DNA of 30,090 nucleotides from the IMG/VR virus record IMGVR_UViG_3300009164_000241, positions 1-30,090 of that record; one strand, 5' to 3'. The position numbers and the translations under genes were made by a program. The notes beneath the pieces were generated by a model. It did no database searches. It saw only the letters and a program-made list of their open reading frames with translations, and was not told where the DNA came from. Shown one piece after another: positions 3,091 to 18,716 of the stretch (position 1 is the first letter of the stretch; each line of letters opens with the position of its first letter). This DNA is from a virus.

Positions 3091-3222
3091 ATGAAGTGTG
3101 AATATAGAAATTGTTTTGTTGAAGTAACTGGAAGGCCAAATAAAAAATTTTGTTCAATTAGATGTAAAAGAAATGAAGCAAAATATAGAAAAAGGAAAAG
3201 AGATAAATGCGAAAAAAGTTAG
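3091..3222 (+). CDS. 43-aa four-cysteine zinc-finger protein
   Basis: A short ORF from ATG 3091 to TAG 3220-3222. It has the layout C-x4-C (CEYRNC), about 12 residues, then KKFCSIRCKR (C-x3-C), followed by a strongly basic tail (KYRKRKRDK). The second half matches the FCS-x-x-C knuckle common in small zinc fingers attached to mobile endonucleases. It follows a TATA box closely and overlaps the start of the homing endonuclease by 16 bases in another frame, so it could be translationally coupled and may be a DNA-binding partner of that nuclease. The overlap, Cys spacing and basic tail argue that it is real. Confidence 0.7.
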   Translation: MKCEYRNCFVEVTGRPNKKFCSIRCKRNEAKYRKRKRDKCEKS

Positions 3223-4103
3223 AATGGGAGGAAATAGTAAGAAGATCATCTGAAAAACATCATAATAAGTATTCATATACTATTCAAGATTATAAAAATG
3301 GGAAATGTAAAATTGAAATTTTTTGTAGAAGTCACGGAAATTTTAAACAATCTATTGAATCACACTTGAATGGTAGAGGATGTCCAAAATGTGCAAATAA
3401 TATAAAATATACAATATCAACATTAATTGAAAAGATAAATTCTATACATGGTGATAAATATACATATGATTTTGAAGGTTTTAAAAACAATGAAAGTTTA
3501 ATAAACATAAATTGCAAGATGCATGGTTCTTTCAGAATGAAAGTTTCTAACCATTTGCATGGACAGGAGTGCAAATATTGTTCACATACCGTTTATACAA
3601 ATGAAGAATTCTTAGAAAGGTGTTCAAATTTACACAATAACTATTATGATTATAAATTAGTCGAATATAAAAATTATAAAAGTAAAATTAGTATAATTTG
3701 TCCAAAACATGGGATTTTTGTTCAAAATGCTAGAACTCACTTTAGAGGCCATGGTTGCCCATCTTGTAAATTATCCAAAGGTGAAATTAAGATAAAGGGA
3801 ATTTTAGTTGAAAAAAATATAAATTTTGAAAAACAAAAAAAATTCGAAAAATGTTACTATAAAGAAAAATTATCTTTTGATTTTTATCTTCCAGATTTTA
3901 ATGTTTGCTTAGAATATGATGGGTATCAACACTTCAACTCTGTTGAGTTTTTTGGGGGGGGAAAAAGTTTTGAAAAACAAAAAATACGAGATATTATAAA
4001 GGATAACTATTGTTTAAATAATAATATAAAGTTATATCGCATAAGGTATGATGAAAATATTGAAAAAAAATTAAATAAAATTTTAAATGAACTTCCGATA
4101 TGA
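3207..4103 (+). CDS. Homing endonuclease with three zinc-knuckle repeats and a Vsr/EDxHD-like nuclease domain
   Basis: A 298-aa protein. Three repeats of about 55-60 residues (roughly 10-62, 72-125 and 134-187) each carry K-Y-x-Y, then C-x2-HG-x-F, then H-(L/F)-x-G-x-(G/E)-C-x2-C, for example CRSHGNF followed by GCPKC. They are probable zinc-binding DNA-recognition modules. The C-terminal 110 residues hold a Vsr-like PD-(D/E)XK core: LSFDFYLPDFNVCLEYDGYQ (222-241), a conserved His242, and a final region with RDIIKDNYC and LYRIRYDE. Such repeats plus this domain are typical of free-standing phage homing endonucleases. It overlaps the zinc-finger ORF by 16 bases and the uvsW start by 17. An eight-G run at 3954-3961 lies inside the nuclease domain. 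The product would cut DNA near its own insertion site in genomes lacking it. Confidence 0.85.
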   Translation: MRKKLEWEEIVRRSSEKHHNKYSYTIQDYKNGKCKIEIFCRSHGNFKQSIESHLNGRGCPKCANNIKYTISTLIEKINSIHGDKYTYDFEGFKNNESLININCKMHGSFRMKVSNHLHGQECKYCSHTVYTNEEFLERCSNLHNNYYDYKLVEYKNYKSKISIICPKHGIFVQNARTHFRGHGCPSCKLSKGEIKIKGILVEKNINFEKQKKFEKCYYKEKLSFDFYLPDFNVCLEYDGYQHFNSVEFFGGGKSFEKQKIRDIIKDNYCLNNNIKLYRIRYDENIEKKLNKILNELPI

Positions 4104-5724
4104 TCCAAAGGAGGAAAAATTGATAGTGCAAAATTCAACAAGAATTGAATATCATCAAATATCTTTGTGGCTATCTAGAAAAGTTAAGGGTTACAGATTT
4201 TTACCAGCGGTAAAAATGGGAGTTTGGAACGGCGAGGTTTCGTACTTTGATAATGGTAAAATTAGTTTAGGTTTGTGGAGAGAATGTTTAAAGGCTTGTA
4301 AGGAAATTGGGGTAATTTTTAATATTGAAAATAAAGATGAATTCCCATTAAACAGAGAAGTAACATTAGAATCTGTTAAAGATTTTTGTGATGATTTCTT
4401 CAAGGATTATAAAATGAAGGATAGAAATACAGGAGAGTGGATACCATTTAAACCATATGACTATCAAGTTGAAACAGCTTATAAGATTTTGAGAAATAGG
4501 TATTGTATGGCTGAAGTTGCTACATCTGGTGGTAAGTCTTTAGTTATATCAATAGTAATGTTTTACACCTTAAAAAATATAAATCCAGAGGCTAAATTTT
4601 TAATTATAGTTCCATCAATAACATTAGTAACACAATTTTATGAGAATATAATGGAGTATAATTATGGATTTAATTTTTTATCCAAGTATCAAGATAAATT
4701 AGACTTTAGAGAACATAAAATTGATGAAATAGTTAAAGAAAATCCAACATATAATCCTTGCTATTTGAAAATGGAGGAAATTATGTCTGATAAACCACGA
4801 AAATATTCTGGTCCAACTCAACCAAATATTTACATAGGTTGTTATCAATCATTAGAAAAATGGCCAAAAGAATTCTTTCAACAATTCCATACGATTGCCT
4901 GTGATGAAGCACATGGTGCCAAAGCAACAACATTGACCACTATATTAAAGAGGACATTTGGGCATGCTTATAATAGATTTGGGGTTAGTGGTACATTCCC
5001 AACAGATGAAAGCTTGGAGATATTAACAATACAATCAGTATTAGGACCAAATGTAACTAAGATTGAGGCCAAGACCCTAGTAGAGTCTGGAACTATTACT
5101 CCGATGAATATAAAGGCAGTTGTTTTAAACCACTCACACGGTCAGTTAAATGAACAACTAGCTTATATTAAAAAAATGGGTGCTGGTGCAGACGCTTTCA
5201 GGTATGAAAAAGAATTCATACAACAATCTGATAAGAGGTTAGAATTTATAAAAAAGTTAATAGATAAATGTGATACTAATACTTTATTACTATTTCATAC
5301 AATTGAATATGGTACTAGAATATATGATAAATTAAGGACTGAACTAACTAATAAAGACTTTTATTACATCGATGGTGAGATTAATAATAAACAAAGGGAG
5401 TTTATTAAAAAAGAAATGGATAAAACCGATGGTAATGTAAAGGTACTAGTGGCTTCGTACGGTACACTGGGTACAGGAATTTCTATAAATGCCATTTTCA
5501 ATGTTGTTTTTGCTGATTCTTTTAAATCCGAACAAATTATCATTCAATCTATTGGTAGGGCTTTAAGAAAACATAATGATAAACAAGTAGCTACAATATT
5601 TGATTTAGTAGATGTTTTTGACACAAAAGAAATGAATAATATTTTATACAAGCATTTCTTGGAAAGAGAGAAGTTTTATAAAAAAAGAGAATATCCTTAC
5701 AAAGTTATAAAGATGAACCTTTAA
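4087..5724 (+). CDS. uvsW: UvsW-type recombination helicase
   Basis: A 545-aa superfamily 2 helicase matching T4 UvsW over its full length. T4 UvsW unwinds R-loops and branched DNA and moves replication from origin-dependent to recombination-dependent initiation. The N-terminal domain retains the UvsW pattern GYRFLP...VWNGEV (35-51). Motif I is ATSGGKSL (145-152), Ia follows at SITLVTQ, motif II is DEAH (273-276), III is SGTF (301-304), V is ASYGTLGTGIS (456-466), and VI is QSIGRALRKH (487-496). The C-terminus YKVIKMNL mirrors the T4 ending YVMKTVNL. Met1 lies inside the homing endonuclease gene but aligns well with the T4 start. No promoter of its own is visible, so it likely depends on transcription through the nuclease gene. 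Its stop overlaps the convergent gp5-like gene by four bases. Confidence 0.96.
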   Translation: MNFRYDPKEEKLIVQNSTRIEYHQISLWLSRKVKGYRFLPAVKMGVWNGEVSYFDNGKISLGLWRECLKACKEIGVIFNIENKDEFPLNREVTLESVKDFCDDFFKDYKMKDRNTGEWIPFKPYDYQVETAYKILRNRYCMAEVATSGGKSLVISIVMFYTLKNINPEAKFLIIVPSITLVTQFYENIMEYNYGFNFLSKYQDKLDFREHKIDEIVKENPTYNPCYLKMEEIMSDKPRKYSGPTQPNIYIGCYQSLEKWPKEFFQQFHTIACDEAHGAKATTLTTILKRTFGHAYNRFGVSGTFPTDESLEILTIQSVLGPNVTKIEAKTLVESGTITPMNIKAVVLNHSHGQLNEQLAYIKKMGAGADAFRYEKEFIQQSDKRLEFIKKLIDKCDTNTLLLFHTIEYGTRIYDKLRTELTNKDFYYIDGEINNKQREFIKKEMDKTDGNVKVLVASYGTLGTGISINAIFNVVFADSFKSEQIIIQSIGRALRKHNDKQVATIFDLVDVFDTKEMNNILYKHFLEREKFYKKREYPYKVIKMNL

Positions 5725-7247
5725 ACATATGTGTCAAATTCACTTTGTTTAATTAGTGTATATGTGAAAGAGTTCTTCCTAGCCTCTGATTCTTGTTTTT
5801 CACAGAATCCCATAAATTGATCAAACTGACTAGCCATCTTAAACACTTGACATCCTTTTGACCAATTGAATACTGATAGACCACCACCACTCTTATTTGA
5901 TCTGTGTATATTAATTCCTATTGCTGCTTTATTTGTTTTAGAATTATAGTCATATTTATCAATATTCTTATTGACATGGTTAACAGTTGTAGCAAATTTA
6001 AGACATTTATGATCTGCTTTACCTTGGTGCAAACCAATTTTAAATTGATTAACATATTGCCCTAATTTTAAGATTGATACTACATCCGGTAGTTGTTTTT
6101 GTCTTGGTTCATATCCTGGTAAAGTTGTTATTGCATATTCATAGAGTTCCCAATTGCCATTACCATTCTTAAAGAAAACACACATTGTTTCATCAAATCT
6201 ATTAGTAACAGTTCCATCATCTTTCTTTCGGAGACCAACCATATTTAGGATAAATCTATCTTCAAATACTTTATAACCTTTAGATTTCATAAATCTGATG
6301 AGTTTATCAACTTTTGGTATAGATTTGGCCGAGGTTAATGGTTCAGGTTGTGGGTTAGTATTAGGTTGTGGTACTGTATCTGGTGTTCCATCAATAGCTG
6401 GTGGTACATAATTAGGGTCATATTCTGGTTTATCACCCTCCACAGGTGCATAGTTTGCAGATGTTGGGTCTGATTTTACTAAATCATTTGGCACAACAGT
6501 AGACCTCCAAACATCCCCAACTTGTCCTTTATTCTCTCTATCGGTATTTTTGACAGTTGAAACTTTACTATTATCTACTATATTAACATGATGGGAAAGA
6601 AATACTGGGTCTCTTAAAGCTTTATATTTCAAAAGAACTTCTATAAATGCTGGATTTGGTATAACAGGAGCTCCTAAGTTACCAAGATAAGGACCACCAG
6701 TTGAGCCAAGAAGGTTATCAACAAATCCATCAAACCAATCCATCCAGTGATTTCCTAATATTGCCTGTTGTCCTGCTGTTGCATCACCAAGATTTAACAT
6801 AGCGTTATTATCTTTAAGGTTCAAATTAATTGAATCTTCTTTTATATTCATGTTATTGAACTTGTGGTCTATTTTAAGACCTTCTTTATCATTTGAATAG
6901 ATTTGGGTTTTGTGATTAAACACAAGTGTACCCATTGAAAGATAATCAGATTCTTCTAACTTTTTTAATTTATTTTCTAAATTAACATTATAGTGATCTG
7001 CTCTTATAAATTCTGGTTTATAAGGATTTCCCTCATCAAATACTACTGAAACCACCTTACCAATTTCTGGTAAATCAAATTGATTACCAGATAAATCTTT
7101 CCAAGGTGTTGCCCAAGGTAATTCATCTACTGGTATATCATCAAAAATATTTAAAACTCTAACTCTACATCTACCCAATCTTTTTGGATCATTATTATCT
7201 TCTACGACTCCAATAAATAGTTGGCTTTTTAGTTCTTCTGTCCTCAT
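5721..7247 (-). CDS. gp5-like baseplate hub/spike protein with C-terminal L,D-transpeptidase-like domain
   Basis: A 508-aa protein. Residues about 6-85 are the OB-fold domain typical of gp5/VgrG spike proteins (FIGVVEDNNDPKRLGRCRVR, then LPWATPW and LPEIGKVVSVVF). Residues 100-250 include regular short strands compatible with a needle or connector, and 255-310 is a Pro/Asn-rich linker. T4 gp5 carries a lysozyme; no lysozyme motif is seen here. Instead residues 315-508 form a different domain with INIHRS (His448) and NWSKGCQVF (Ser463, Cys466). The spacing H-x14-S-x-G-C fits the L,D-transpeptidase (YkuD) signature H-x14-17-[ST]-H-G-C except for Lys in place of the second His. I infer a peptidoglycan-active or peptidoglycan-binding tip. 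It is the last gene of the baseplate module and starts three bases after the preceding gene. Confidence 0.85.
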   Translation of the reverse strand: MRTEELKSQLFIGVVEDNNDPKRLGRCRVRVLNIFDDIPVDELPWATPWKDLSGNQFDLPEIGKVVSVVFDEGNPYKPEFIRADHYNVNLENKLKKLEESDYLSMGTLVFNHKTQIYSNDKEGLKIDHKFNNMNIKEDSINLNLKDNNAMLNLGDATAGQQAILGNHWMDWFDGFVDNLLGSTGGPYLGNLGAPVIPNPAFIEVLLKYKALRDPVFLSHHVNIVDNSKVSTVKNTDRENKGQVGDVWRSTVVPNDLVKSDPTSANYAPVEGDKPEYDPNYVPPAIDGTPDTVPQPNTNPQPEPLTSAKSIPKVDKLIRFMKSKGYKVFEDRFILNMVGLRKKDDGTVTNRFDETMCVFFKNGNGNWELYEYAITTLPGYEPRQKQLPDVVSILKLGQYVNQFKIGLHQGKADHKCLKFATTVNHVNKNIDKYDYNSKTNKAAIGINIHRSNKSGGGLSVFNWSKGCQVFKMASQFDQFMGFCEKQESEARKNSFTYTLIKQSEFDTYV

Positions 7248-9645: not shown

Positions 9646-12522
9646 CTAAGAGAATAAATCTATTAGTCTATTAAATTCGGTTATATAATCTTTAGATTTT
9701 TGGTTCTTATCCGGTCTATCCAATGGAAAACTACTAGAAAAAACCTTTGTCCATTTAAATACAGCTATTAAAATACTATTTATAACTTGCTCATCAGTAT
9801 CAGAACCAGTTAGGTGTGTAGCATTATCTGAAGTTATTATTGTTGGATTTGTTAAGAAATCTTTACCAAGAAATTGTCCAGTAAGTTTATATTGATCTTT
9901 TCCAAAAATCATAGAAAGACCCCTACCCTTATATTCTAAATCTGTTGTAAATGGACGCAGACCCAGCTCAGCCATAGACAACTGGCCACTAACAGCATAT
10001 TTGGTCCAATTTACATCCTCAGTTACAAAGTTAAGATAATTTGATTCTATATTAACAAAAGATAGGAAATTAGAAATTTCATTATCCTCTTTAATATTAT
10101 ATTCTCTTAATATCTCAACCATAGGTGTGTAATATTTTTCAATTACCTTTGGATTTACCTTACCAAGATAGATAGTTCTCCATATTTCTTTTGTTAGAAT
10201 GGATTCTTCTTCAGCTGGTGCTACTGGAGGTGCTGGTGGTATTGGATCTATATTATCTTGTGTGGATGTACCAGTTACTGGTGTAATAGTTCCTGGTTGA
10301 GGTGGTGTGGATGATGTTGGTCCAACCTCAGCTGGTTGTGCAGGCAATGGTGCTTCTTGATCAGTTGGATTTTCATTATTCTGATTTTGAGTTGGTTCCT
10401 TAGATTGATTAGTTGGGCTTGTTTGTGGAGCTTCTTTACTAAGTTCTTCTGGGGAAAGTTCCAAATCTCTTTTGGATAATTCAATTCTTTGTCTAAAGTT
10501 ACCACCAATGAAAGTAAATGATATATCACTTATAAGCCATTGTCCAGTCAAACGGCTATTTAATTCTGATTTAGATGGTGATGCTTTTTGATTTGATACA
10601 ATTACAAATACTTTTTGAAACTTATAAAAATTATAATTTGGACTAGTTAATTCAACTATAAGACCAATTTTAGATAGTTCCATGTAATTAATCTTGTTCT
10701 GAACAACAGCATAATAGTAATTCTCATGAACATTGTCCATATCCAATCTACCTGCATAGAGTAAGTTTATATTTTCTTTGAAAAAGGTTTCATCTTGTGG
10801 AGCACCTCTTAATAAAATCTTCTCATCAGCTGGACTTGTTATAGCATCAATATCAAAAACTAAAAAGTTTTTCTTTAGTTCATCATAAAATTTCAACTTT
10901 GTTAAATATCCTTTTGTTAGAGATATTCTAGTTGCATTATTTATTGTGGTGTACTTTTCATAGTAAAAATTTGTTTGTTTATTTGCAAAATCATTACTTA
11001 GAAAATTTCGAGATAAAACATCTTTATCCAATGTTTTAACAACTTCTTCAATACCAACATTAGCTATGCCAAGTTCTTGTGTTATATCTCTTTTCATTTC
11101 CTTTTCCACATCTATATAATTAAGATTGTAGTAAAAGTCAATATATTGGATTAAATATGTCTCATCTGATTTGTAGGTATGTTTAGTCACACCATTAATA
11201 AACTCATATAATTTATTTCCAGTGTTTATCCAAGTCATTTTATCATCAGTATTATCAATGTTCGAATTAAAACCTAATCCCAAATCCTTTGCTATTTGTT
11301 CATACAATTTATAAGATGTTTTCTGTGAATATGATTGAAACTTTCTCAAATATAACTCTTTGATATCTATCACACCAGTTATACCATAAATATCATTATC
11401 ATCTGAAAAGTCAACAATTTTAAAATCCATGTGTATTGGTTTTAAAAATTTAGTTCTAGGATTTAAGAATAAAGATATTTTGGTATCATCTAATGGGATA
11501 CCTGATTGTTTCATAAGACCAATAGTATCTTTGAATTTTGCAGTTAATGTGGGTAAATTATCTAAATAAGATAGTTCAAAAGAAATAATATCTGCGTATT
11601 CTATTTGAGTGCTATTATACCAAAGCATTGGTAGATTACCAAAACTCTCAGCAAATTCTTTTTTGTAACCGTCATTTGGTGGTAATTCTATTTTGATTTC
11701 GCTTGCTTTTCTTTCATTTGGGAAAACATTCTTTATCGATTTTGTCTTTTCAACATCTTCCCCCTTATTCTTATTAGCATTGGGGGTTTCCCCAGTTCTT
11801 TCCTCTCTTCCTTGGTCTTGTTCATCAACTTCCATTGGAGTTTGCTCCTGTGGTTCTGGTTGTGTCACTTCTTCAGGTGGTGATGAAGTAGTTGAACTAT
11901 CTGGTGTGGGTGTTTCTTGATTTGGAGTATCATCAATTGATTCATTTGGATCATCTTCAGGTAAACTACTTGGAGTTTCTTGTGGATCTAATTCTGTATC
12001 AGTTAATTCTCCATTTACTGATTGTGGTGGTGCATTCTCAGGTGCTAATTCGGACTGTGTACCAGATTGTATGGGAGATTCAGATGATAAAAGATATAAG
12101 GATAGTGCCCAACCACCACCATTTTGATCAGATGAGAATGTATTTATACTTGAATCGCTTTGATTTTTTGTATATTCAAAAAGTGGTGGATTAGGATAGC
12201 CAGGTACAGTTGTTGTTGCGGATTGTATAATTTCAGATAAAATCTGCTTTATAGAAGTTACAGTATTATCAATTTTATCGACTATTTTATCGTAATCAAA
12301 TTGTAAAAATACCTCAACATTTCTATCATCAAATTCTGTGAAATAGTATGGGGGTAAAAGATTAGCAACAAATCCAGTTGAGTTGAAAAAATTATAAATT
12401 CTATCATCTATTTCATCTGTTAATAATTTACCACCTTTGGGTGATTGGTAATCATTTAATACAAATTTTACTCTATCTTTAGGACAGGTAATTTTAATGC
12501 TAATTACATAATACTTTGACAT
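9646..12522 (-). CDS. gp27/gpD-like baseplate hub protein fused to a GH19-type cell-wall hydrolase domain
   Basis: A 958-aa protein in four parts. Residues 1-145 are a folded N-terminal domain. Residues 146-265 are a Pro/Glu/Thr/Ser-rich linker. Residues 280-690 are a hub-type domain as in gpD/gp27 proteins (FELSYLDNLPTLTAKFKD early; GQWLISDISFTFIGGNFRQR at the end). Residues 690-772 are a second Pro/Gln-rich linker. Residues 776-958 look like a glycoside hydrolase 19 (chitinase/lysozyme-like) domain: FVNIESNYLNF with the likely acid Glu826, VTEDVNW (Glu835), YKGRGLSMIFGKDQYKLTGQ matching the GRG-x7-9-Y-x-x-G signature, then LGKDFLTNPTII. It would be carried at the tail tip and cut peptidoglycan glycan strands during entry. 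The genes on either side are the gp53-like and tube-fold-like proteins. Catalytic activity is inferred, not shown. Confidence 0.82.
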   Translation of the reverse strand: MSKYYVISIKITCPKDRVKFVLNDYQSPKGGKLLTDEIDDRIYNFFNSTGFVANLLPPYYFTEFDDRNVEVFLQFDYDKIVDKIDNTVTSIKQILSEIIQSATTTVPGYPNPPLFEYTKNQSDSSINTFSSDQNGGGWALSLYLLSSESPIQSGTQSELAPENAPPQSVNGELTDTELDPQETPSSLPEDDPNESIDDTPNQETPTPDSSTTSSPPEEVTQPEPQEQTPMEVDEQDQGREERTGETPNANKNKGEDVEKTKSIKNVFPNERKASEIKIELPPNDGYKKEFAESFGNLPMLWYNSTQIEYADIISFELSYLDNLPTLTAKFKDTIGLMKQSGIPLDDTKISLFLNPRTKFLKPIHMDFKIVDFSDDNDIYGITGVIDIKELYLRKFQSYSQKTSYKLYEQIAKDLGLGFNSNIDNTDDKMTWINTGNKLYEFINGVTKHTYKSDETYLIQYIDFYYNLNYIDVEKEMKRDITQELGIANVGIEEVVKTLDKDVLSRNFLSNDFANKQTNFYYEKYTTINNATRISLTKGYLTKLKFYDELKKNFLVFDIDAITSPADEKILLRGAPQDETFFKENINLLYAGRLDMDNVHENYYYAVVQNKINYMELSKIGLIVELTSPNYNFYKFQKVFVIVSNQKASPSKSELNSRLTGQWLISDISFTFIGGNFRQRIELSKRDLELSPEELSKEAPQTSPTNQSKEPTQNQNNENPTDQEAPLPAQPAEVGPTSSTPPQPGTITPVTGTSTQDNIDPIPPAPPVAPAEEESILTKEIWRTIYLGKVNPKVIEKYYTPMVEILREYNIKEDNEISNFLSFVNIESNYLNFVTEDVNWTKYAVSGQLSMAELGLRPFTTDLEYKGRGLSMIFGKDQYKLTGQFLGKDFLTNPTIITSDNATHLTGSDTDEQVINSILIAVFKWTKVFSSSFPLDRPDKNQKSKDYITEFNRLIDLFS

Positions 12523-12538: not shown

Positions 12539-13000
12539 TTAGGAGCCTATGACCAGAACATTTCCATCAATTCTAACTGGAGCTTGTGGTGTTTCTAAGA
12601 AATTAGGCGGTAGGCTATATCCTTGCTCAACAAATTGTTTTCTATTTGGATCTTTTCTAGTGGACTTATTAGAATTTAGTAATCTTTTTCTTACTTCCTC
12701 AACATTAGTATCTACGTTATTAAATAATACTATTTCTGTCAATTCAACATACTTTATAACATCACCCTGCATTACATTGAGAGGATTGTCTATTTGATTA
12801 AAATTGCATAAAAAGTCAACATAATTAACTGAACCATAAATTTTAAAAGAAATTAAATCCATTCTCATTTCCTCATCTTGGTCAACAACATAGTTTGTTG
12901 ATTGAGCTGCTGGATAATCAATATAAGTCTTATTGAAAAGATTATATAAATCATCTTGATTTGGGTCTCTGGTTAATTTTTCTATATCATAAAGTTTCAT
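12539..13000 (-). CDS. gp53-like baseplate wedge protein with LysM-like core
   Basis: A 153-aa protein. Residues about 45-90 follow the T4 gp53/LysM scheme: MDLISFKIYGSVNYVDFLC, then FNQIDNPLNVMQGDVIKYVE. That is D-x-I-(S/A)-x-(K/R)-x-Y-G followed by N-x-I-x-(D/N)-P and a closing G-D/M-x-I strand. In T4, gp53 locks adjacent wedges around the hub. The flanking N-terminal segment and the basic loop (RKRLLNSNKSTRKDPNRK) are specific to this phage. The gene sits between the 679-aa baseplate gene (5-base gap) and the hub gene (16-base gap) on the same strand, consistent with a baseplate operon. Confidence 0.72.
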   Translation of the reverse strand: MKLYDIEKLTRDPNQDDLYNLFNKTYIDYPAAQSTNYVVDQDEEMRMDLISFKIYGSVNYVDFLCNFNQIDNPLNVMQGDVIKYVELTEIVLFNNVDTNVEEVRKRLLNSNKSTRKDPNRKQFVEQGYSLPPNFLETPQAPVRIDGNVLVIGS

Positions 13001-15622: not shown

Positions 15623-17338
15623 ATGGAAATTAAAAGATTTAATAACTGGGAAAAAACAAACGAGGAAGTTGGTTTAAGGAATATATCTAAATTTGCTAAA
15701 TTACATAAAACTTGTGAGATTTATTTTCACAAAGATTTGGATGGTGTAACATCTGCACTTGCTATGAAAGGTTTTTTAAAAACCTATTATCGAATTGAGT
15801 GTGTGGATTGTCACATAATTCAATATGGTGGGTTAGAATACGCTATCAAACAACATCAACCAGAAAATCTTTGTGTATTGGTTGATTTTGCCCATGGGAA
15901 ACCTATGTTCCAAATTCAATCTGACCACCATGATAAACAAGTTGGTGCTGAAGATACAGAATCTACTTATTTCAAATCTGCTCGTTCTAATGTTGAAATT
16001 ATTTCTGGTGAAATTTCCTATGCTCCCATCTTCACTCCACAAGATATTGATTTAATTAAGACAGTTGATTCAGCTAACTTTTTAACTTATAATATCAAAC
16101 CAGAAGATGTTCAGAATTCTATTTTTTCGGTATCTAAAGATGATTCTGCTACTAAGAATAGATTTATGATGGGATTTGTAGTCAATAGGCTACTATTAGC
16201 ATACAAGAATAAAAGGATTTCTTGCACATCGTTAGATGGTAAAATGACTCATAACAATAGAAATATTCTTGAATGTTTAGTTTTAGATTCATCACCTAGT
16301 TTATACTCAATGTTTAATAATATAAAACATTATATAAAAAATGGTGGAACAACTGATAAACTTGGTAGATTAGCAACACCTGAAGAAATAACAGCAAATC
16401 TGAGTGATTATATACAGAGAATGAAAAATTATTCATTCATCGAAGATCCACAGACTGGTGAAGTATCCGAGTATGACCCTACGAATTGGAAACATAAAAA
16501 AATGATGTCAAGTGGTTCTCAGATTGGTAAAGGTGTAAATTTTGATGAGGATTATAAAATTGTAACTCAATATGGTGGTGGATCTATGTTTAAACCTGGA
16601 TCATATGATAGATATGTAGTTTTCAAAAACAATCCTGAGGCAGATTTCAACTGTATAGCTTGGCCAATGGGATTATTGCAAGTTTCTTGTAATCCATTCA
16701 AGGAAAAAAAATTAAAGGGAATTAATTTAGGTGAAATTGCCAAGGAAGTTTTGGCAAAATACGAGCCCACACTTAAGAAATTTTATGTTTCTTTAGAGTC
16801 AATAAAAAATGAGTTTGAAACATCACAAGATTGGAAAGCAATGGCTAAGGCTGAGGGACAAGATTATGAAGGGGTGGGGTTTAGGTTCAGTGATTTAGAA
16901 GCATTCTACAAAGATTGTTTATATGCAAAACAAGATAATAAAATAGTTAATGTAGATATTGACGAACCAAAATTAAAGTCTACAATGGATACTCTACATG
17001 GTGACTTGAAATCTGATCAGAAGAAATATTTGAGTAATATTAAGGTTCCTGCTTGGGAACTTATAATAAGAAATTCTGGTGGGCATCCATCAATTACAAA
17101 TATTTCTGGTTTTAATTTCTTAAAATACAATAGACCAGCACTAAAAATGGCATTCAATACGGAAAAATATGTTGATGTTCTTAAAATTATGGCAAAGGAT
17201 TTTGTAAATAATTTAAAAGAAAAAATTGACATCGCAAATCAAGGGGGTAAGGTAGAATATGATACTAAAGGTGTAGAGTTATTAGGACAGGATACTAATG
17301 AAAGTGTTGTGTTAAAATATGATAATTTTATTTCTTAA
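15623..17338 (+). CDS. DHH-family phosphoesterase (571 aa)
   Basis: The DHH/RecJ-type motifs are complete: HKDLDG (36-41; Asp38, Asp40), LVDFAH (Asp88), SDHHDK (Asp101-His102-His103) and KTVDS (Asp149), all Mn-binding positions of this superfamily. A GGHP motif at 486-489 matches the substrate-binding GGH of a DHHA1 domain. About 330 residues lie between the two parts, far more than in NrnA-type enzymes of about 320 aa in total, so there is a large insertion. Known members degrade nanoRNA, pAp or cyclic di-AMP, or act as 5'-3' exonuclease (RecJ); the substrate here is undetermined. The ends carry short tags, MEIKRFNNWE at the start and VLKYDNFIS at the end. The stop overlaps the convergent amidoligase gene by 11 bases. 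Confidence 0.9.
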   Translation: MEIKRFNNWEKTNEEVGLRNISKFAKLHKTCEIYFHKDLDGVTSALAMKGFLKTYYRIECVDCHIIQYGGLEYAIKQHQPENLCVLVDFAHGKPMFQIQSDHHDKQVGAEDTESTYFKSARSNVEIISGEISYAPIFTPQDIDLIKTVDSANFLTYNIKPEDVQNSIFSVSKDDSATKNRFMMGFVVNRLLLAYKNKRISCTSLDGKMTHNNRNILECLVLDSSPSLYSMFNNIKHYIKNGGTTDKLGRLATPEEITANLSDYIQRMKNYSFIEDPQTGEVSEYDPTNWKHKKMMSSGSQIGKGVNFDEDYKIVTQYGGGSMFKPGSYDRYVVFKNNPEADFNCIAWPMGLLQVSCNPFKEKKLKGINLGEIAKEVLAKYEPTLKKFYVSLESIKNEFETSQDWKAMAKAEGQDYEGVGFRFSDLEAFYKDCLYAKQDNKIVNVDIDEPKLKSTMDTLHGDLKSDQKKYLSNIKVPAWELIIRNSGGHPSITNISGFNFLKYNRPALKMAFNTEKYVDVLKIMAKDFVNNLKEKIDIANQGGKVEYDTKGVELLGQDTNESVVLKYDNFIS

Positions 17339-18716
17339 ATCCTTTCAAACTACCTTGATCTTTTTTCCTATTGTATTGATCATCATCAAACTTGGTATTG
17401 AAGAAGTTATCTGTATCAGATACAATTTTAGTTTCTGAACTTATATTAGCATAAGGTCCTAACTTACCACTTCTATAAACACCACCGGTCATATCACAGT
17501 TTAAGTATCCACCCATAAAGAAAGAATCCTTTAATTCAGTAGATTCGACTTCACAGTTAAGTACTTTTGTACCAGTGACATCACAACCATGTATTCTAGA
17601 TTTAATTATTTGACAATTGTTTATTTCTGAATTAACAAATTGACAATTCTCAAATATTCCATCTGCTAAAATACAGTTAATAAAATCAAATCCACTAACA
17701 TTTTGAGTGGTTTTTATATTAGCATCAATAATTTCAATCTTCTGTGTTGCTGTAACAAAATTTATAATACAATCTTGTAAAGATTCAGTCGCATCGACTA
17801 ACTTATGTAGTTTTGGATATATTCTATCATAATAAGCATTTATTATATCATAAGAATATTGTTGATCAACTTGTAAAGTTACACTAGGAAAGTCAACTAT
17901 AAAGTTATTATAATTAGAAAAGTTCTTAAAATTGTTAATGTTTTCCTCTAAATAATTTTCCAAATCTTCGATATCTTGGTCATTGAATGTAGCGTCTATG
18001 GACTTATACACATTTAAAATAAATCTATCTAAAAAATAAGTTATTTGTCCTATATTCTTTTCATAATCCTTACCACCAATATATCTGAACTCTAATCTTT
18101 GTGAATCTTTTGGATTATTAATGTGTAGAAAGTTAATTCCATAGTATTTATCATCTGGTAATCTTAAGGTATTTCTAACAACATCGATAGGTACACTATT
18201 ATAATCATATTCCTTGAATGGAATTATTTTCTTTATGGTTTTAGCATAAACATTGCCTTTTCTAGAAGGGAATACTTGATAAATTTCATCTTCATCAACC
18301 ATCAATATTAACTTTAATGCATTTAAATCATTTAAATTTTTATCAGATTCTTCTGTGAATGAAAGGTTAAAGTGTATTGATGACTTTTCATTTGTATATC
18401 CATACATTTGGATAAACTTTAATATTTTAATCAAATGATATTTAGCTTCAAAATAAGGCATTGGCCCTGTAATCATTTCAACCATGTTGGCGCCTCCCGA
18501 TAAATCAGGTTCTATTTTAAAATTTTGAGAATCTGGTTTAAATTCAGTGTGGTATTTTCTAAATCCCCATACTTTAACAGGTGCTAAGTATTGATTAAGC
18601 AATTCCAATGTCTTATAATAAGACAAATCTTTCATATAAAACTCAAATTCTAAACCACAAACAGCTTTGTTTAGAATTACCGAATCATTTAAAAACTTTT
18701 CTGAATATTTCTTCAT
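17328..18716 (-). CDS. Amidoligase-like enzyme fused to a pentapeptide-repeat tail (462 aa)
   Basis: Residues 18-240 follow the COOH-NH2 ligase (Amidoligase_2, glutamine-synthetase-like fold) scheme. They have GLEFEF (21-26, metal-binding glutamates), EPDLSGGANMVEMITGP (69-85, the D-x-S...E-h-h-(S/T)-x-P strand), SSIHFNLSF (112-120, His115) and RLEFRYIGGKDYE (207-219). Such enzymes join a carboxyl and an amino group using ATP; substrates are often peptides or cell-wall components. Residues 325-425 are a pentapeptide-repeat helix with Cys recurring about every ten residues (348, 358, 368, 378, 388, 407). The tail ends basic (RKKDQGSLKGFKK). The ATG overlaps the upstream stop by one base (TAATG), so translation is probably coupled. 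The fusion suggests an anchored or protein-modifying ligase; the target is unknown. Confidence 0.8.
   Translation of the reverse strand: MKKYSEKFLNDSVILNKAVCGLEFEFYMKDLSYYKTLELLNQYLAPVKVWGFRKYHTEFKPDSQNFKIEPDLSGGANMVEMITGPMPYFEAKYHLIKILKFIQMYGYTNEKSSIHFNLSFTEESDKNLNDLNALKLILMVDEDEIYQVFPSRKGNVYAKTIKKIIPFKEYDYNSVPIDVVRNTLRLPDDKYYGINFLHINNPKDSQRLEFRYIGGKDYEKNIGQITYFLDRFILNVYKSIDATFNDQDIEDLENYLEENINNFKNFSNYNNFIVDFPSVTLQVDQQYSYDIINAYYDRIYPKLHKLVDATESLQDCIINFVTATQKIEIIDANIKTTQNVSGFDFINCILADGIFENCQFVNSEINNCQIIKSRIHGCDVTGTKVLNCEVESTELKDSFFMGGYLNCDMTGGVYRSGKLGPYANISSETKIVSDTDNFFNTKFDDDQYNRKKDQGSLKGFKK

Follow-up and report, generated by a model that had tools for sequence, protein, structure and literature searches.

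A gp5-type tail spike from a megaphage contig with a putative Cys-His cell-wall peptidase domain of the phrog_3000 family

The window analyzed in this study, a viral contig of 30,090 bases taken at its whole length, encoded a spike protein of 508 aa on the minus strand (5721-7247, start ATG at 7247), for which the initial annotation had given no strand. In our reading, this protein forms the central spike of a megaphage with a contractile tail, and its C-terminal domain, a phage domain of endolysin type (phrog_3000) acquired by capture, would cut the peptide part of peptidoglycan, Cys466 being activated by His448 and acting through an acyl-enzyme as in enzymes of the L,D-transpeptidase fold. 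A probability of about 0.65 was given to this reading as a whole. The role of the domain as a peptidoglycan peptidase, judged from sequence comparison, appeared very probable when taken by itself. A tail-tip peptidoglycan peptidase was well supported because of the swaps of the domain with VanY and CHAP, its fusions to lysozyme and peptidoglycan-binding domains, its holin and amidase neighbours, the conservation of His and Cys, and the hydrolase genes near spikes that had lost the Cys.

The N-terminus of the spike carried a gp5/VgrG-type OB domain (residues 12-79, 7011-7214, minus), which matched PF04717 over the cut-off (E 1.3e-7) as well as phrog_430 (2.1e-15) and phrog_694, both gp5-like. 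It was followed by a Pro-rich linker (residues 263-306, 6330-6461, minus; 25% Pro), so that both elements described in the initial annotation were confirmed. The C-terminal domain (residues 310-503, 5739-6320, minus) matched phrog_3000 of PHROGs v4, a family of unknown function, at positions 7-203 of the 209-position profile (3.6e-14). The window also encoded a gp25-like baseplate wedge subunit (12539-13000, minus; phrog_7145/1269) and a hub protein of the same tail tip, gp27-like by position (9646-12522, minus). The order wedge, hub, 788-aa protein, spike was retained in several relatives, indicating that the spike ORF belongs to the tail tip. The nearest relatives in the annotated collection were LR756502 (642 kb) and LR745206 (635 kb), the C-terminal domains of which were 56% and 47% identical to that of the window, respectively.

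No Pfam match to the GH24 lysozyme (PF00959) was found in the spike ORF, and to this extent the earlier statement that the domain stands instead of lysozyme was correct. However, it needs a caveat, because the adjoining hub protein was GH19-like (chitinase/endolysin) at its C-terminus (residues 776-958; 9649-10197, minus), by matches that were weak and mostly of one kind: phrog_181 endolysin at 1.1e-5, PF00182 below the cut-off (E 0.033), and GH19 chitinase/endolysin structures at E 0.016-0.037. From these similarities, the glycan hydrolase may have been relocated to the neighbouring hub protein. Elsewhere in the window, a 462-aa protein (17328-18716, minus) resembled pentapeptide repeats in its C-terminal half, and a 106-aa ORF (1542-1862, minus) was highly acidic with long Asp/Glu runs. 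In addition, a 298-aa ORF beside the helicase gene (3207-4103, plus) contained repeated Cys/His modules of the type HGxF...GCPKC and is perhaps a homing-endonuclease-like protein.

The candidate catalytic residues were located in INIHRS (residues 445-450) and NWSKGCQVF (residues 461-469). His448 (5904-5906, minus) and the S463-K464-G465-C466 motif (5850-5861, minus) were separated exactly as previously stated, and H448-x14-S463-K-G-C466 conformed to the YkuD (PF03734) motif H-x(14-17)-[ST]-x-G-C. The pattern H-x12-17-[ST]-x-G-C arose by chance in 0.3% of 20,000 shuffles of the C-terminal domain. More tellingly, the His and the Cys were kept in essentially all of the 236 relatives outside spikes. 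Among these, 33 positions were at least 95% conserved, including the Cys and two His, the second of which corresponds to His407 in the window (6027-6029, minus). The window domain retained 21 of the 31 other conserved family positions, and the family's conserved TTxPG loop was present as TTLPG (residues 374-378, 6114-6128, minus); the Arg-Asp pair conserved in the family was missing. It had been suggested that the Lys replacing the second His of the YkuD motif was unusual and might define a subfamily. Lys464 was rejected as such a mark, since the residue x of SxGC was Ala (168), Glu (69) or Lys (4) among the relatives and is therefore not unusual in kind, and the bacterial YkuD proteins retrieved also had residues other than His before G-C (SSGC, WTDGC, SQGC and others). 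In L023 and other free-standing relatives, a D-x-N-x-D-G-x-x-D loop (e.g. DNNKDGKLD) was observed directly before the His motif. It resembles a calcium-binding loop and was missing from the window spike.

The initial annotation had called the domain L,D-transpeptidase-like, a label that the order of motifs and weak YkuD and Tlde1 matches only suggested, with no match at a family cut-off. The window C-terminal domain gave no match over any Pfam or NCBIfam cut-off, and no Pfam match to YkuD or Tlde1 (PF10908). The best relative scores read were 16.3 bits against a cut-off of 23.4 for YkuD and 16.8 bits against 30.1 for Tlde1. For the 122 family members examined, weak matches were obtained to YkuD in five (best 0.0091) and to Tlde1 in two (0.0094). 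When 24,736 Pfam models were ranked by the number of weak matches to these members, the unrelated family ATP_bind_3 came first, YkuD second and Tlde1 among the next few. The weak YkuD matches of relatives placed the His and SxGC in YkuD register, and our own YkuD profile matched 213 family sequences at E < 10 compared with 69 reversed ones. In hhalign, only the motif region showed similarity to YkuD; for three of the four YkuD sets, some 2 in 100 column shuffles did as well, one outlier (score 133) inflating the spread for YkuD_all, and nothing was obtained with YkuD_2 and the ErfK-type set. For DUF5675 (PF18925), none of 100 shuffles was as good. This family shares H-x(n)-x-G-C with the domain and gave a weak match in the fold search of the viral library (E 0.004, probability 0.92), but it is shorter and of unknown function, and the DUF5675 profile used here was built from three sequences only. 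Searches for Tlde1 in 10 genomes returned nothing, and those for DUF5675 in viral contigs returned no relatives. Sequence searches of the domain against the PDB gave no real match: the nanobody matches were judged to be chance, and 4obm (whole-protein E 8e-5) was rejected, as the SxGC motif was not covered and the match disappeared with the family profile.

In the AlphaFold2 model of the window domain (pLDDT 88.9), His448 lay in a strand. Cys466 immediately preceded a short strand and a long helix, after which came the last strand. The model of the free-standing relative L130 (pLDDT 97.1) had the same order of elements. This arrangement, with the His strand coming after other strands and SxGC being followed by a helix and the last strand, resembles that of YkuD. 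Using Foldseek against the PDB, the top match of the window model was Bd1075, although weak (E 0.075, TM 0.29). This enzyme is an L,D-carboxypeptidase; it contains an LDT domain and has a Cys-His-Ala triad (PMC8938487). The L130 model, at a pLDDT of 97, gave no significant match, and no L,D-transpeptidase was among its top 50. The domain was like YkuD and Tlde1 in H-x14-S-x-G-C, the His on a strand and the helix after the motif, and unlike them in scoring below every curated cut-off, in similarity limited to the motif and in giving no convincing fold match. An L,D-transpeptidase fold was nevertheless considered somewhat better than an even bet. A less likely explanation, though one to be taken seriously, is that a separate lineage of cysteine peptidases with another fold converged on H-x(n)-S-x-G-C and plays the same peptidoglycan-cutting role at the tail tip. 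The lack of a PDB counterpart for so confident a model, the confinement of YkuD similarity to the motif, and the second invariant His together with the Arg-Asp pair of the family are consistent with it, whereas the YkuD-like order of elements, the recurrence of both YkuD and Tlde1 among the few repeated weak Pfam matches, and the L,D-transpeptidase-fold enzyme as top PDB match of the window model argue against it. Equally tentative is the proposal that the domain founds a new class of phage cysteine peptidoglycan peptidases with a fold absent from the PDB. Such a class would be common in phages, among them crAss-like phages and the prophages of Bacteroidota and marine Gammaproteobacteria, and would have moved once onto the megaphage spike, there to decay and be replaced by other peptidases.

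The relatives of the domain comprised more than 590 viral-contig stretches among the matches listed and 324 bacterial-genome stretches. Most of those read were free-standing proteins of about 200 aa, whereas in the window the domain forms the tip of a gp5-type spike. The crAss002 gp5 protein is one of the free-standing relatives. In crAss-like phages, the phrog_3000-type gene was directly upstream of the terminase, and in the P2-like Pseudoalteromonas phage ACA1 it was located between the tail tube and the tail chaperone. Several relatives were associated with lysis functions. L234 was fused to a GH24 lysozyme (3e-45), L101 and L053 were fused to PG_binding_1, a holin gene (2e-6) came after L101, and an Amidase_2 gene (5.9e-18) directly preceded L227. 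Moreover, phrog_33083, which is labelled endolysin, matched lysozyme as well as this domain. By a rough tally, with redundant loci counted and membrane segments called by a simple hydropathy rule, the domain gene was followed by a short ORF predicted to contain a membrane segment in 84 of 230 loci compared with 9% of control ORFs. In a cluster of Bacteroidota genomes (L227:2000-9000, L252 and L223), the gene order was similar, the domain gene came immediately after an amidase-like gene, and no tail genes were recognised by eye; it is perhaps a tailless prophage. The initial annotation had left open whether the tip attacks or grips the peptide part of peptidoglycan. Attack was supported by the swaps, fusions and lysis neighbours, and cutting was favoured over gripping because the free-standing relatives sit in a lysis-gene setting.

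At the position of the window domain, the homologous megaphage spike L005 carried VanY (1.3e-13) and L006 carried CHAP (1.3e-5), while the spike of L007 was short and its next gene was VanY (1.3e-10). Such swaps with known hydrolases at the same spike position suggest that the domain belongs to the class of tail-associated peptidoglycan hydrolases. In the spikes of L011, L025 and L033 the Cys was changed to Ser, and in L025 the His was gone too. In L003 (7947-11274) and L004 (7947-10922), the C-terminal domain was split over two ORFs with loss of the Cys, the motif reading SEDGSQVF or SENGSQVF, and the second ORF ended in an OmpA-type domain (1.5e-23 and 9.1e-22). OmpA-type domains are peptidoglycan binders. 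These losses indicate that the activity is not essential in every spike. Four of the five Cys-less spikes, all but L011, were faced by an opposite-strand gene (L025:6915-8528, L033:6725-8932, L003:11293-12954 and L004:10925-12919) ending in an M15, GH19, VanY or CHAP-like domain. The scores were 3.9e-13 for VanY and, below the cut-off, 5.2e-5 for M15 (just below), 9.5e-4 for GH19 and 0.01/0.0013 for CHAP/DUF1287. Next to the spikes of L024, L032, L034 and L002, the stretches that were read showed no gene of this type. The association of Cys loss with a nearby hydrolase gene is only suggestive, because L025 and L033, and probably L003 and L004, are not independent. In the tree, the spike-fused domains shared one side of a branch (support 98/94). 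This is compatible with a single capture of the domain by spikes but does not prove it, as the root is not fixed and two of the rows are long. A non-catalytic module, serving to bind peptidoglycan, to grip it covalently or to plug the tip, could account for the lost Cys in these five spikes and for the peptidoglycan-binding type of domain joined to the split ones (1.5e-23), but it is very improbable given that the window spike has kept both the His and the Cys, which do not vary outside spikes, and that four of five Cys-less relatives have a facing hydrolase-like gene, as if the activity needed replacing.

For the peptidase spike preferred here, the following course of events is proposed. After tail contraction, the spike would be pushed through the outer membrane, the OB domain keeping it in the hub and the linker presenting the C-terminal domain to the cell wall. 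There, His448 would activate Cys466 for attack on a stem-peptide bond via an acyl-enzyme, and the GH19-like domain of the adjoining hub protein could possibly cut the glycan. Acyl-enzyme attack on stem-peptide bonds is the mechanism of carboxy- and endopeptidases of the L,D-transpeptidase fold. Enzymes of the YkuD family can work as transpeptidases, as carboxypeptidases or as endopeptidases, and they are also able to attach proteins to peptidoglycan (PMC12729407).

Searches of the open-access literature turned up no paper on phrog_3000; going by titles and abstracts, they also gave none on a spike of the L,D-transpeptidase type. Within the open-access part of the literature that was searched, the cartridge seen here and its probable function appear undescribed. 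If the reading is true, the peptidoglycan peptidase of megaphage tail spikes is a cartridge exchanged at one fixed position, and loss of the catalytic Cys often goes with another hydrolase gene nearby. Furthermore, a testable function can be offered for a large phage family that had none assigned, namely that of a candidate endolysin in phages of Bacteroidota, the crAss-like ones among them.

Tail spikes bearing a peptidoglycan enzyme are already known. Lysozyme is the enzyme domain of T4 gp5, the baseplate hub subunit and tail lysozyme. The swaps, fusions and lysis-gene neighbours bore out the view that the window encodes a gp5-type spike in which a putative Cys-His cell-wall enzyme takes the place of the lysozyme of T4 gp5. 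Like T4 gp5, the window spike possessed an N-terminal OB domain, was accompanied by hub and wedge genes in the tail cassette, and carried a domain of peptidoglycan-enzyme type. Unlike T4 gp5, it had no GH24 lysozyme, and its added domain was C-terminal and peptidase-like.
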